In this document: positions 11,919 through 17,775 of the stretch, piece by piece | Position numbering within the stretch: the first letter of the stretch is position 1 | Layout of the letters: the number at the start of each line of letters is the position of its first letter | Assembly (NCBI RefSeq): GCF_000378605.1 | Contig: NZ_KB905157.1 | Span: forward strand, 62,001 to 126,000 | Reading direction: 5' to 3' | DNA length: 64,000 nt | From: Thioalkalivibrio sp. ALJ21 | GTDB lineage: Bacteria; Pseudomonadota; Gammaproteobacteria; Ectothiorhodospirales; Ectothiorhodospiraceae | The notes under the pieces: model-generated | Databases searched by the model: none | Told to the model about the DNA's origin: nothing | What the model saw: the letters and a program-made list of their open reading frames with translations, nothing else | Made by a program: the position numbers and the translations under genes

Positions 11919-12094
11919 TCGCGCCTAACCCACCCGGATTCCGCGAATTTCAGCGCCTTCCATCTGCGCAGCTCCTGTTGGATGGCGAATCGCCATATCG
12001 TTCGCGGTTACGGCGCCATCGAACCCCGTTGGTTGGCGGTCCCTGTGACATCCTTTGAGCCAATGGCCCGGTCCTGTAATCACCCGTGGACCCA

Positions 12095-12394
12095 TTAGAA
12101 GTAGTCGTCCTCGCGCTGGTGCCGAAACGCCAGGAGGGAGACCGTCTCGGCATCGTCGATCTCGAACAGGGCGACATAACCCGAGCGGCCAAACGGAATC
12201 AGGAGTTCGCGGATGCGGGGGTGGGAGGCGTCGGGCATGCGGCAGCTCAGCGGAAAGCGCTCGAGTAGCGATACCGCCTCGCCGATGGCGGCCCGAGCAT
12301 GGGCCGCGGCCGTTGGGTCGCGCTCCGCGAGGAAAGCGACAAGCCGCAGGAGATCTTCGCGCGCCTGCGCTGTAAATCGTACCGAGTAACTCAT
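12095..12394 (-). CDS. ParE/RelE superfamily toxin
   Basis: A 99-residue toxin of the ParE/RelE fold. It has the family N-terminus 'YSVRFTAQAREDLLRLVAFL', the central 'IGEAVSLLERFPLSCRMPD', 'IRELLIPFGRSGYVALFEID' and the C-terminal 'VSLLAFRHQREDDY'. Members inhibit gyrase (ParE) or cut ribosome-bound mRNA (RelE); 'RELLIPFGRSGYV' and the HQRE end look more ParE-like. It lies 25 bases downstream of its putative antitoxin, in the normal order. The length is normal, so it is probably intact. Confidence 0.87.
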   Translation of the reverse strand: MSYSVRFTAQAREDLLRLVAFLAERDPTAAAHARAAIGEAVSLLERFPLSCRMPDASHPRIRELLIPFGRSGYVALFEIDDAETVSLLAFRHQREDDYF

Positions 12395-12419
12395 CCTTGA
12401 GACTCCAGCGGTTGGGCTA

Positions 12420-12671
12420 CTACTTGCTTAAGAGACGGTCGAGATCATCGAGTACCGATTGGGCCGGGTAGTACTCGCCCGTTTCCCGGGCGCTGCGTGC
12501 GGACTCCAGGCCGCGCGCCAGGAACTCGGCCCGGGCTCGTCGACGGTCAATCTCGTGGCGTACGGCATCCTCGATAAAGGCCGACAATGTCTCCCCCTCG
12601 CCAAGGGCTTGCTCCACCTGATGCCGAAAGCCATCGCTCACCCGCAGGGCTGGCAACGTCGTGTTTTTCAT
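12420..12671 (-). CDS. Antitoxin of the ParE/RelE-type pair (YlcI/YnfO-like)
   Basis: An 83-residue protein. The N-terminus ('LPALRVSDGFRHQVEQALGE') resembles a short ribbon-helix-helix DNA-binding unit; a charged helix ('SAFIEDAVRHEIDRRRARAE') and a C-terminal toxin-binding tail ('AQSVLDDLDRLLS') follow. This pattern is common in antitoxins paired with ParE-type toxins. The ATG at 12671 is preferred to one at 12716, because the longer reading would translate through the upstream dyad. Confidence 0.8.
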   Translation of the reverse strand: MKNTTLPALRVSDGFRHQVEQALGEGETLSAFIEDAVRHEIDRRRARAEFLARGLESARSARETGEYYPAQSVLDDLDRLLSK

Positions 12672-12696
12672 CCTGTGTCTCCGCAACCGCCTTCCC

Positions 12697-12719
12697 GTAT
12701 TGTATCGCAAATGCAATAC
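12697..12719. promoter_or_regulatory. Inverted repeat operator of the TA pair
   Basis: GTATTG-N11-CAATAC lies 26 bases upstream of the antitoxin ATG (read on the minus strand). It is AT-rich relative to its surroundings and in the right place for binding by the ribbon-helix-helix antitoxin. Confidence 0.55.
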
Positions 12720-12835
12720 AGAATGCTGGCCTGCATTCGAAGGCGTTATCGCCTGTCAGGGATAACGAGTGGCAAAGGAAGGTCTGGTGCTGAAGTCGTC
12801 ACTGCGAGACTGCGGCCATCCGCCGAACCGGCCAG

Positions 12836-13168
12836 CTATCCGGTCGCGCGCATGCCGCCGCCACCTCCGCCGCCCGGCGGGGGTGTCCAGACGTTGCGAA
12901 AGGCCTGGTGCGTCTTTTCCGGCAGATCGCGGGAGAAGCGCAGCTGAACACCCGTGTCGGTGCGCACCGCGGCGATCCGGCCCCGCTTGAGCCCGAACTG
13001 GCGTGCCACGTCCTCGCAGCCACGCACAAAGCCGGCCGGGGGCTTGCCGCGTCGCACGCGGGCCTTGCCATCGCGCAGCTCCACCGAGAACACCTGCCGC
13101 GCATGCCAGAGCATCAGCGCGACACCCAGGCCCAGCAACAAGAGCATGATCAACAGCGTAAGGAGCAT
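12836..13168 (-). CDS. DUF3634 family small membrane protein (copy 2)
   Basis: A 110-residue protein with one N-terminal membrane segment (about residues 1-22) and then 'VFSVELRDGKARVRRGKPPA' and 'VARQFGLKRGRIAAVRTDTG', which align with the copy at 447-779. The C-terminus differs: it ends in a proline/glycine run (PPPGGGGGGGMRATG) rather than a basic tail. The start at 13168 gives the same length as copy 1; the open frame to 13327 lacks family similarity. It stands alone, between the TA pair and the PilZ gene. Confidence 0.7.
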   Translation of the reverse strand: MLLTLLIMLLLLGLGVALMLWHARQVFSVELRDGKARVRRGKPPAGFVRGCEDVARQFGLKRGRIAAVRTDTGVQLRFSRDLPEKTHQAFRNVWTPPPGGGGGGGMRATG

Positions 13169-13393
13169 CACCGAATGGGGCGCCAAATGGGACGAGAATC
13201 GGCGCCCAGTGTAGCGCACGCCATCCTGCGTCGATCGCATGTCGCAGCGGCGAGCTGGGGTCTCCCGATGCGTGCGGGGCGAAGTGCGGACGGTTCCGCA
13301 TCGCCCGCGAGCCGGGGCCAGACGCATGTACTACAGTCCAAAGAAAGACACGAACATGCCGTAGCGGAATGAGCTGCGGGGGGAGTGTGGCCA

Positions 13394-13750
13394 ATGGAGC
13401 TTCGCGAAGGGCGTCGCAGGGCGATCGGCATGACCGCCGAGGTACAGACTCGATCCGGTGCCCCAGGGTATCGCGCCCGTGGACGGGTCCGGGATGTCAG
13501 CCTCAGCGGGTTGTACCTGGAGTTGCCGGTTTCAGGTCTCTCCGAGAATTCCAGAGTGCGGCTGATCGTAAGCCCGGAAGAAGCGCCCGACGGCCGGACC
13601 CATGTCTGGCATTGCATCGTCATGCGCCTGGACGAGAACGGCGCGGGCGTGATGTTCGAAACCGAAGACCCGACCAACGTCGACGGCCTCCTGGACCTAA
13701 TGCGGGAGCGCATCGGGCTCCCACCCGTGAAGCGTTCGTTTCGGAGCTGA
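13394..13750 (+). CDS. PilZ domain protein, probable c-di-GMP receptor
   Basis: A 118-residue single-domain PilZ protein. Both halves of the c-di-GMP site are present: an Arg-rich start ('ELREGRRRAIGMTAEV', RxxxR type) and 'DVSLSGLYLEL' (the D/NxSxxG motif). The rest is a beta barrel ending in 'GVMFETEDP'. Single PilZ domains act as adaptors in motility, adhesion or exopolysaccharide control. No partner gene lies beside it. The ATG at 13394 has a GGGGAG ribosome site, so the extra codons from 13385 are not needed. Confidence 0.85.
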   Translation: MELREGRRRAIGMTAEVQTRSGAPGYRARGRVRDVSLSGLYLELPVSGLSENSRVRLIVSPEEAPDGRTHVWHCIVMRLDENGAGVMFETEDPTNVDGLLDLMRERIGLPPVKRSFRS

Positions 13751-13845
13751 AATGCCCCGTTTAAGGCTGTTCCTACAGGGGGGGGGTTACCGTCGTGCGA
13801 CCCCGTCATGGGTGGTCCCATTGCTTCCAAAGCGAGACTTGTCCG

Positions 13846-14727
13846 CTATTTCTTGTAACTCATCAATGTGCCTAACGCTTTTGCGAGTGCAGCTTCGTCC
13901 TTAAGGGCCTGAGATAGTCGATCGGACAGTTCAGCCAATACAACCCGCACGCTACTAGCAATATCCAAGCACTCCTCATCCGATAATGCATGGATTCCTT
14001 CGCTAAGAGCACTATGCAGAAGCAATAATGGGCTGTGCCCATTAATCAGTAGGCTTTCCGGAATGGCGTCTTTTGCGTTCTTTAGTGCGGTGCTAAACTG
14101 GGTCTCTTCGGTTGCGTCTTTGAGGGTTTTGATTTGCTCCTGGGAGGCCCCAATTTTTTCCGACACTTTTATTATTTCGCTTAGGATCCTGTTTTTCTGG
14201 TTCTCTACTACTCTGCGGTAATAGATGAATGCGCCTACTCCAAGCCCCTGATTCTCACATCTACGGCCCTTTAAAAACTCGTCCCTATCTGGCCCGATTA
14301 GTTTGATCAATCGAGATGGAGTGGGTGGTCCAAAATTAGGCAGTTCCCCAAATTTGTAACACTCTCCAGTCTCAGAAAACGTACTATCCATTTTCGCGGC
14401 AAGCGAAAATGTCTTTTCTTCTTTTAAGCAGTTATAGCACCGGTATGTAGCATAAAAAAACGAGAAATCACCGCTGGTAATTACCGGCTTGTTTTGATCT
14501 ACGTAGCGAAAAAAACGCTCGCCGTTGCACGACTCGCTAGAGCAGTGAAGTTGAATTTGGGGTGCAATAAACTCATCAACCCACCCGCCATATTCGCTCC
14601 GGTATTCTTTTTGTGCTAGTTTTGATATTCGGGATACTTGATTCGGTGGGTGGGACTCCAGAAAATCGCTCAAGTGGTATTCTGGTTCGGCTTTCTTTAT
14701 TTTTTCGTTTTCAGCTCTCTCGGGCAT
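13846..14727 (-). CDS. AT-rich orphan gene, zinc-ribbon-like N-terminus and helical DUF4145-like C-terminus
   Basis: A 293-residue protein whose DNA is strikingly AT-rich compared with everything around it, which points to recent acquisition. Residues 62-67 (CSSESC) and 97-100 (CYNC) form two cysteine pairs like a zinc ribbon. The C-terminal half is helical: 'FIYYRRVVENQKNRILSEII' followed by 'HSALSEGIHALSDEECLDIA' and 'SSVRVVLAELSDRLSQALKD', which resembles DUF4145/HEPN-like proteins often found as single genes in accessory regions. Function is unknown; a defence role is possible but unproven. It ends convergently with the PilZ gene. Confidence 0.75.
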   Translation of the reverse strand: MPERAENEKIKKAEPEYHLSDFLESHPPNQVSRISKLAQKEYRSEYGGWVDEFIAPQIQLHCSSESCNGERFFRYVDQNKPVITSGDFSFFYATYRCYNCLKEEKTFSLAAKMDSTFSETGECYKFGELPNFGPPTPSRLIKLIGPDRDEFLKGRRCENQGLGVGAFIYYRRVVENQKNRILSEIIKVSEKIGASQEQIKTLKDATEETQFSTALKNAKDAIPESLLINGHSPLLLLHSALSEGIHALSDEECLDIASSVRVVLAELSDRLSQALKDEAALAKALGTLMSYKK

Positions 14728-17705
<2,978 letters not shown>

Positions 17706-17744
17706 GCACGGCCCGAGCCGGGTAACGCGCTCGGTTCAAGCAAA

Positions 17745-17775
17745 AGGCGCTCGGGGTGACCCGGGCGCCTTTTTT
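17745..17775 (+). terminator. Rho-independent terminator of katG
   Basis: AGGCGC-t-CGGG-GTGA-CCCG-g-GCGCCT forms a stem with a 4-base loop, followed by TTTTTT. It ends katG transcription 40 bases after the stop codon. Confidence 0.85.

Follow-up and report, generated by a model that had tools for sequence, protein, structure and literature searches.

A lone, AT-rich gene on a GC-rich Thioalkalivibrio chromosome raises the question of where it came from and whether it provides, as a sequence-only reading of the locus proposed, a single-gene defence function. Here, we report a computational analysis of this gene (its 293-aa protein is referred to as P0001) within a 64-kb window, the whole stretch of 64,000 nucleotides under analysis. 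The gene is a one-gene unit of a widespread, unnamed and apparently mobile family. The gene, the segment that carries it and the two genes that border the variable slot are as follows:

13846..14727, minus strand: the gene (open reading frame, 293 aa, ATG start)
13810..14856, no strand: foreign AT-rich segment, set by the ends of homology (genome G025 on the left, genome G020 on the right; composition fit, 13819-14864)
13385..13750, plus strand: PilZ-domain gene (PF07238, E 1.2e-6), left border of the variable slot (context, outside the unit)
15513..17705, plus strand: haem peroxidase gene, katG-like (PF00141, E 1.3e-68), right border of the variable slot (context)

The gene has a GC content of 45.5%, whereas 882-bp stretches taken across the window average 66.3% (z -5.7), and its GC at third codon positions is 47%, versus 90% in katG. 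All 882-bp stretches below 52% GC (starts 13529-13531 and 13534-14310) overlap the gene's AT-rich segment, and those clear of it fall no lower than 59.5%. A two-state likelihood composition fit placed the segment at 13819-14864, with the gene as its sole content, while left-side homology with sister genome G025 ends at 13809 and right-side homology with G020 restarts at 14857 (with G025, weak similarity begins at 15007 and strong similarity at 15167). The composition fit and the independent homology ends nearly coincide, and the foreign piece therefore extends only a little beyond the gene, by about 36 bp on its downstream side and 129 bp on its upstream side. The sharp change of composition noticed at both ends of the gene was thus confirmed, with the small correction that the foreign piece is slightly longer than the gene.

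The gene is single-copy in its own genome. No repeats flanking the segment were found in 13700-15520, where the repeats seen were short and two-copy; tRNA genes numbered 0 in the window, and a promoter scan of 13600-15200 gave 0 sites. Terminator-like sites in 13600-15200 numbered 5, versus 2.2 expected (SD, 1.5), with 4 lying within the gene, and the hairpins in the coding region were at 14389-14411, 14026-14044, 14473-14488 and 14521-14533. Elsewhere in the window, 12098-12394 and 12423-12716 (both minus strand) hold a ParE toxin gene (PF05016, E 8.1e-15) and a small adjoining antitoxin-like gene (weak PSK_trans_fac match, E 0.017).

P0001 matched PHROG 25239 (PHROGs v4, unknown function) over nearly its whole length (residues 15-291 to profile positions 13-289 of 294; E 5.1e-83); that family comes without an assigned function, and the P0001 copy is chromosomal. 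Scans of P0001 against Pfam and NCBIfam returned no significant match, PADLOC-DB 2.0.0 returned 0 families at E<=10, and a sequence search of the PDB returned no significant match, the best being an eL42 zinc ribbon (E 0.3). Weak matches were set aside, comprising DndD (E 0.039) and DUF4315 (E 0.18) for P0001, YqaH (0.0023; 7 of 29 relatives), SLX1_C (0.0043; 6 of 29 relatives) and Csn2 (PADLOC, at most 3 of 29 aligned proteins, best E 2.7e-4). The family went unrecognised in the Pfam, NCBIfam and PADLOC scans, and it is coherent, crosses phyla and has a confident structure model.

A scan of species genomes identified relatives at 28 loci (27 at 41-67% identity and one at 73% over a portion of the protein) in Cyanobacteria, Campylobacterota, Pseudomonadota, Thermodesulfobacteriota, Acidobacteriota, Poribacteria and other phyla; most are full-length, with up to 67% identity over nearly the whole length in other phyla. 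The plasmid search gave two records with relatives, both from Leptospira. In the phage collection, searched at the protein level, a single record held a relative, the temperate Rhizobium phage TRX32-1 (induced from a lysogen), and no other did. Viral contigs held relatives at 15 loci with the widest query (weakest, 29% identity). Across the class, 4 of 369 genomes matched at 1e-10 (own genome included), two of them through distant relatives. Within the genus, the 29 other genomes searched (7 of them <90% complete) contained no match, and about 18 of these keep the peroxidase region without the gene. E. coli genomes had no DNA match to the Pseudomonas relative. The description of the gene as an orphan therefore holds locally, where it stands alone in its AT-rich segment, and fails overall, given its many relatives in other bacteria, plasmids and phages. 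One distant relative, on a 9.7-kb Pelagovum plasmid (L110:5918-6715), is annotated as a short-chain dehydrogenase, probably wrongly, and adjoins a gene annotated as super-infection exclusion protein B.

Relatives were more than 3 GC points poorer than their own surroundings in 28 of the 35 cases measured and more than 3 points richer in 1 (comparison without L011, the rows omitted from the tree described below and loci having <3 kb of flank). The family tree (38 rows) omits the duplicates L001, L048, L049 and L037, the pairs L045/L087, L046/L088 and L047/L089, and L002, L018, L026, L030 and L041; viral loci L106-L109 stand outside the tree, the residue-count alignment and the GC comparison. 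The five Pseudomonadota rows require 5 label changes, and a Pseudomonas row pairs with a Desulfobacteraceae row with starred support; 12 of 35 inner branches are open, and long branches meet. All 11 phylum labels together require 13 changes, versus a shuffle mean of 17.0, a value as low being reached in 0 of 200 shuffles. Since the rows are more clustered by phylum than in the shuffles, part of the spread is vertical, and descent and transfer are mixed.

The AlphaFold2 model of P0001 (35-row alignment; mean pLDDT, 91.8; pTM, 0.79) is built of strands as far as residue 129 and of helices over residues 138-292, with an N-terminal beta/zinc-ribbon domain at about residues 15-130 and a helical domain at about 134-292. 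The former carries four cysteines:

14428..14544, minus strand: zinc-ribbon cysteines C62, C67, C97 and C100 (codon span, by codon arithmetic from the open reading frame)

Their spacing is C62-x4-C67 and C97-x2-C100. C62, C67 and C97 are kept in all 35 aligned proteins and C100 in 34, so that two conserved cysteine pairs lie on a beta-rich domain; across the alignment, the zinc-ribbon-like CxxxxC/CxxC pattern seen by the sequence-only reading was borne out. Modelled alone, the N-terminal domain again formed strands (pLDDT, 95.1), for which Foldseek returned nothing at E<=0.001 and VIA-align no row above Z 3.7. The eL42/L44e ribosomal zinc ribbon weakly matches the cysteine ribbon (sequence E 0.3; fold Z 3.7, rmsd 3.3, 55 aligned), and the resemblance recurs, but it is far below significance, and the remainder of the P0001 N-terminal domain differs.

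Foldseek of the model against the PDB and viral models gave nothing at E<=0.001. The top VIA-align rows for the helical part were a designed protein (Z 8.3), 2q00 (Z 7.6; rmsd 3.0, 107 of 120 aligned) and then rhodopsins (up to 7.3) and designs among HEPN proteins, these being 2hsb (Z 7.0), 1o3u (6.6), sacsin 3o10 (6.4) and RnlA 6y2p (6.2). The best natural soluble PDB chains are thus 2q00, 2hsb, 1o3u, 3o10 and 6y2p, all HEPN and all at Z<8, a level at which, by the tool's own warning, a bundle match may represent a common arrangement; vinculin and FAT-domain rows (about 6) tie with the lower HEPN rows. Judged from the model, the helical domain quite probably has a HEPN-type fold. The helical HEPN-like region suggested earlier stands insofar as the model contains a helical bundle whose best matches include HEPN proteins (a predicted structure lacking any such bundle, the outcome that would have spoken against it, was not seen) and is qualified by every HEPN Z lying below 8, with designs and rhodopsins scoring equally. 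The HEPN-T Parep1/8 family, represented by 2q00, keeps the histidine without conserving the arginine (PMC3710099), as the P0001 family does; against this, identity to P0001 is 17%, Z is below the trusted level of the tool, and the 120-residue chain of 2q00 has no room for a zinc-ribbon domain, unlike P0001.

The conserved residues of the bundle form a putative active site:

13990..14016, minus strand: H238-x3-S242-x3-H246, at the R-x3-N-x3-H spacing of DUF4145 as judged by eye
14203..14217, minus strand: R171, R172 and E175 (35/35 each), carried by helix 2 of the bundle

H246 and S242 are found in all 35 aligned proteins and H238 in 33. HEPN RNases are marked by Rx4-6H (PMC3710099), a motif absent from P0001, in which S239, A240 and L241 occupy the positions 5-7 before H246. 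An arginine stands at the Rx4-6H place in only 2 of 35 proteins (L032 and L016), so the HEPN arginine is not conserved; R or K occurs at 239 in 5 of 35. HEPN families with the histidine kept and the arginine lost exist, notably that of 2q00, and other conserved basic residues may substitute (PMC3710099).

DUF4145 (PF13643), which the sequence-only reading had named, belongs to HEPN, and some of its proteins have a zinc ribbon fused to them (PMC3710099). Like P0001, it has a cysteine ribbon followed by a helical bundle, with the same site spacing by eye and a weakly aligning R..E helix; in P0001, however, H replaces R, S replaces N, the bundle is longer, and Pfam gave no match to PF13643, either with P0001 (E<=10) or with 29 members (E<=1). 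Of 114 genomes, 13 had DUF4145 places. There were 16 such places, and 13 of them were aligned (omitting L101, despite its passing the cut-off, and L102 and L105, which fell short of it); counting back from the histidine, the R at eight residues is kept in 9 of the aligned places, the N at four in 13 and the H itself in 13, and this R lies outside the Rx4-6H spacing. Comparison with DUF4145 by hhalign (13 and 4 rows) gave insignificant scores (probability, 1.1% and 2.3%; E 0.051 and 0.02), with the R171/R172/E175 helix lined up against the R..LE helix of DUF4145. By eye, H238/S242/H246 share the R-x3-N-x3-H spacing of DUF4145, to which the profile comparison adds no significant support, and the proposed DUF4145 likeness was not upheld by any sequence or profile match. 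P0001 may nevertheless work like a HEPN protein, though it falls outside both DUF4145 and canonical HEPN membership. BxaP, a BREX-associated protein with a predicted DUF4145/HEPN domain, was tested against phage T4 (PMC10799925); its likeness to P0001 lies in the predicted HEPN-type domain, whereas BxaP is tied to BREX and has a different C-terminal domain.

The place that the gene occupies holds something else in the sister genome, as does the place of its relative in sister phages:

L079:4492-5301, plus strand: lone TIR-domain gene in the same slot of sister genome G025 (PF10137; PADLOC PDC-S35)
L111:1533-1603 and L112:1593-1666: tRNA-Asn of phages RHEph01 and RHEph21, at the place of the TRX32-1 homologue

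G025 is 97% identical to the window over 12000-13768 and 93% identical over 15167-17774 (95% on the left and 92% on the right over shorter stretches). The 1.4 kb between these shared flanks carry a different single gene, encoding a 269-aa protein with a CAP12/Pycsar-type TIR domain (PF10137, E 6.9e-34) that matches PADLOC profile PDC-S35 (E 2.2e-68). PDC-S35/CAP12-PCTIR proteins of this sort resemble our gene in being encoded by a lone gene in the shared chromosomal slot and differ in being of another kind (TIR domain, PF10137). With its nearly identical flanks and different single gene, G025 is a clean natural comparison. PDC stands for phage defence candidate, i.e., a prediction (PMC11514479). 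The PDC-S35 gene in the equivalent slot, a single instance (n = 1) and itself a candidate, suggests a defence role more strongly than any other clue.

The relative in Rhizobium phage TRX32-1 adjoins the major capsid gene and is encoded on the opposite strand; in its place, RHEph01 (88% identity over the aligned parts) and RHEph21 (85%) carry a tRNA-Asn. The TRX32-1 paper discusses variable and acquired genes, and its available part makes no mention of the relative (PMC8631192).

Neighbours of the relatives were clustered from 575 ORFs at 45 loci, called with a simple longest-ORF caller, so some of these ORFs are spurious. No neighbour family occurred in more than 3 of 45 loci; homologues are thus not consistently placed in a metabolic operon, which would have spoken against a defence function, and the gene apparently works by itself or with an unlinked partner. 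The largest clusters, of 3 loci each, were L006/L007/L008, L015/L016/L018 and L031/L043/L044, the last read as an integrase. Many two-locus clusters join L033 to L037, which are one and the same Leptospira plasmid, or L035 to L042, from related phages, and the cluster of L018 and L026 consists of fragments of the homologue itself and is no neighbour. Pfam tallies among near ORFs included aconitase, HSP90, DprA and amino-acid kinase once each, and on our reading some relatives, several chromosomal copies among them, sit amid ordinary genes. Of 48 loci scanned for tRNA genes, 6 contained one each.

Ten neighbours were picked by eye, of which 6 matched PADLOC at 1e-5 or better and the other 4 matched nothing. 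The gene next door matched PDC-S15 at L012, PDC-S28 at L044 and, where the copy is a distant relative, PDC-S31 at L089. At L015 it encodes a type IIG restriction enzyme and at L016 a specificity subunit, each ending about 15 bp before the homologue, and at L032 a PD-T7-1/Mrr-type protein, whose PD-T7-1 match is confined to profile positions 1-97 of 452. The third gene from the Leptospira copy L033 is annotated as Shedu family. Near ORFs (138 of 139, one L018 ORF omitted; L037, L042, L088, L089 and homologue fragments dropped) matched 235 PADLOC profiles and far ORFs (138 of 203) matched 19, counting profiles and not proteins; because restriction profiles inflate the near count, no enrichment beside defence genes is claimed.

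The foreign composition, patchy spread, lack of a recurring partner, slot swap in G025, restriction or PADLOC-candidate genes beside some relatives and HEPN-like model lead us to read the gene as encoding a conflict protein that is complete in one gene and moves horizontally, directed most probably against phages or, on behalf of one mobile element, against other elements, a reading to which we give an even chance; the lack of a PADLOC match, Z values below 8, the unconserved arginine and the ordinary neighbours at some relatives weaken it. The sequence-only reading had picked out a real feature and placed it in a reasonable class. That the gene has some role in defence or inter-element conflict is somewhat probable. 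The predicted architecture is an N-terminal beta/zinc-ribbon domain plus a C-terminal HEPN-like bundle with a non-canonical site (H238/S242/H246, with R171/R172/E175), and the protein may be an active RNase, at rather less than even chance. In such a protein, the zinc-ribbon domain would recognise either a signal induced by the phage or a target associated with RNA or the ribosome; RNA would then be cleaved by the HEPN-like domain or, were that domain catalytically dead, bound and blocked by it; and phage growth would stop, probably at a cost to the infected cell. A bolder and improbable version posits a novel family of single immune genes whose eL42-like ribbon would steer a non-canonical (H-S-H) HEPN ribonuclease to tRNA or rRNA, halting translation on infection, and which would spread bare through exchangeable one-gene slots, an idea drawn from the TIR gene in the equivalent slot of G025 and the tRNA gene in that of the sister Rhizobium phages. 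If it protects against phages, the gene would add a one-gene system with an unusual HEPN-like site.

The rarity of the Rx4-6H arginine (2 of 35 proteins) also suits another reading, in which P0001 would be a catalytically inactive HEPN-like nucleic-acid binder serving its mobile element (in superinfection exclusion, lysogeny or plasmid maintenance), found in this chromosome by chance and no defence nuclease. The occurrence of relatives in a phage, plasmids and viral contigs fits, as does the exclusion protein B gene annotated beside the distant relative on the small plasmid; yet a dead site would be expected to keep fewer residues than the five kept throughout (S242, H246, R171, R172 and E175; 35 of 35) plus H238 (33 of 35), and several chromosomal copies appear to sit amid ordinary genes. 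We consider this binder unlikely. A stand-alone toxin, or half of a toxin-antitoxin pair, kept through stabilising DNA segments has in its favour the toxin RnlA (6y2p) among the structural matches and the ParE toxin gene about 1.5 kb off in the window, but the latter lies outside the AT-rich segment, within the flank common to G025, and no recurrent partner gene stands beside the relatives; a toxin is accordingly hard to sustain here.

Position next to a peroxidase gene would suit a host metabolic or regulatory function (zinc sensing, or oxidative stress via the adjoining peroxidase). This is very improbable, as the 29 other genomes of the genus have no match and about 18 of them retain the peroxidase region regardless, the slot content of G025 differs, the neighbours of relatives vary, and the distribution is not tied to the peroxidase gene. 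Unusual composition, taken alone, could reflect an AT-rich non-coding stretch with a chance ORF, which near-full-length relatives (up to 67% identity, other phyla) and a confident structure model refute almost beyond doubt. We thus return to the conflict protein as the preferred reading. Among the papers searched, none named phrog_25239 or PDC-S35 and none joined zinc ribbon, HEPN, anti-phage and single-gene.

Two minor observations concern the family and its slot. Homologues in Hymenobacter (L026:7953-8859), Poribacteria (L018:8001-8894) and a viral contig (L041:515-1413) are split into two reading frames. In two other genomes of the genus (L083 and L084), a glutathione-peroxidase-like ORF, by our reading of the sequence, adjoins the katG-like gene at the place of the variable slot.
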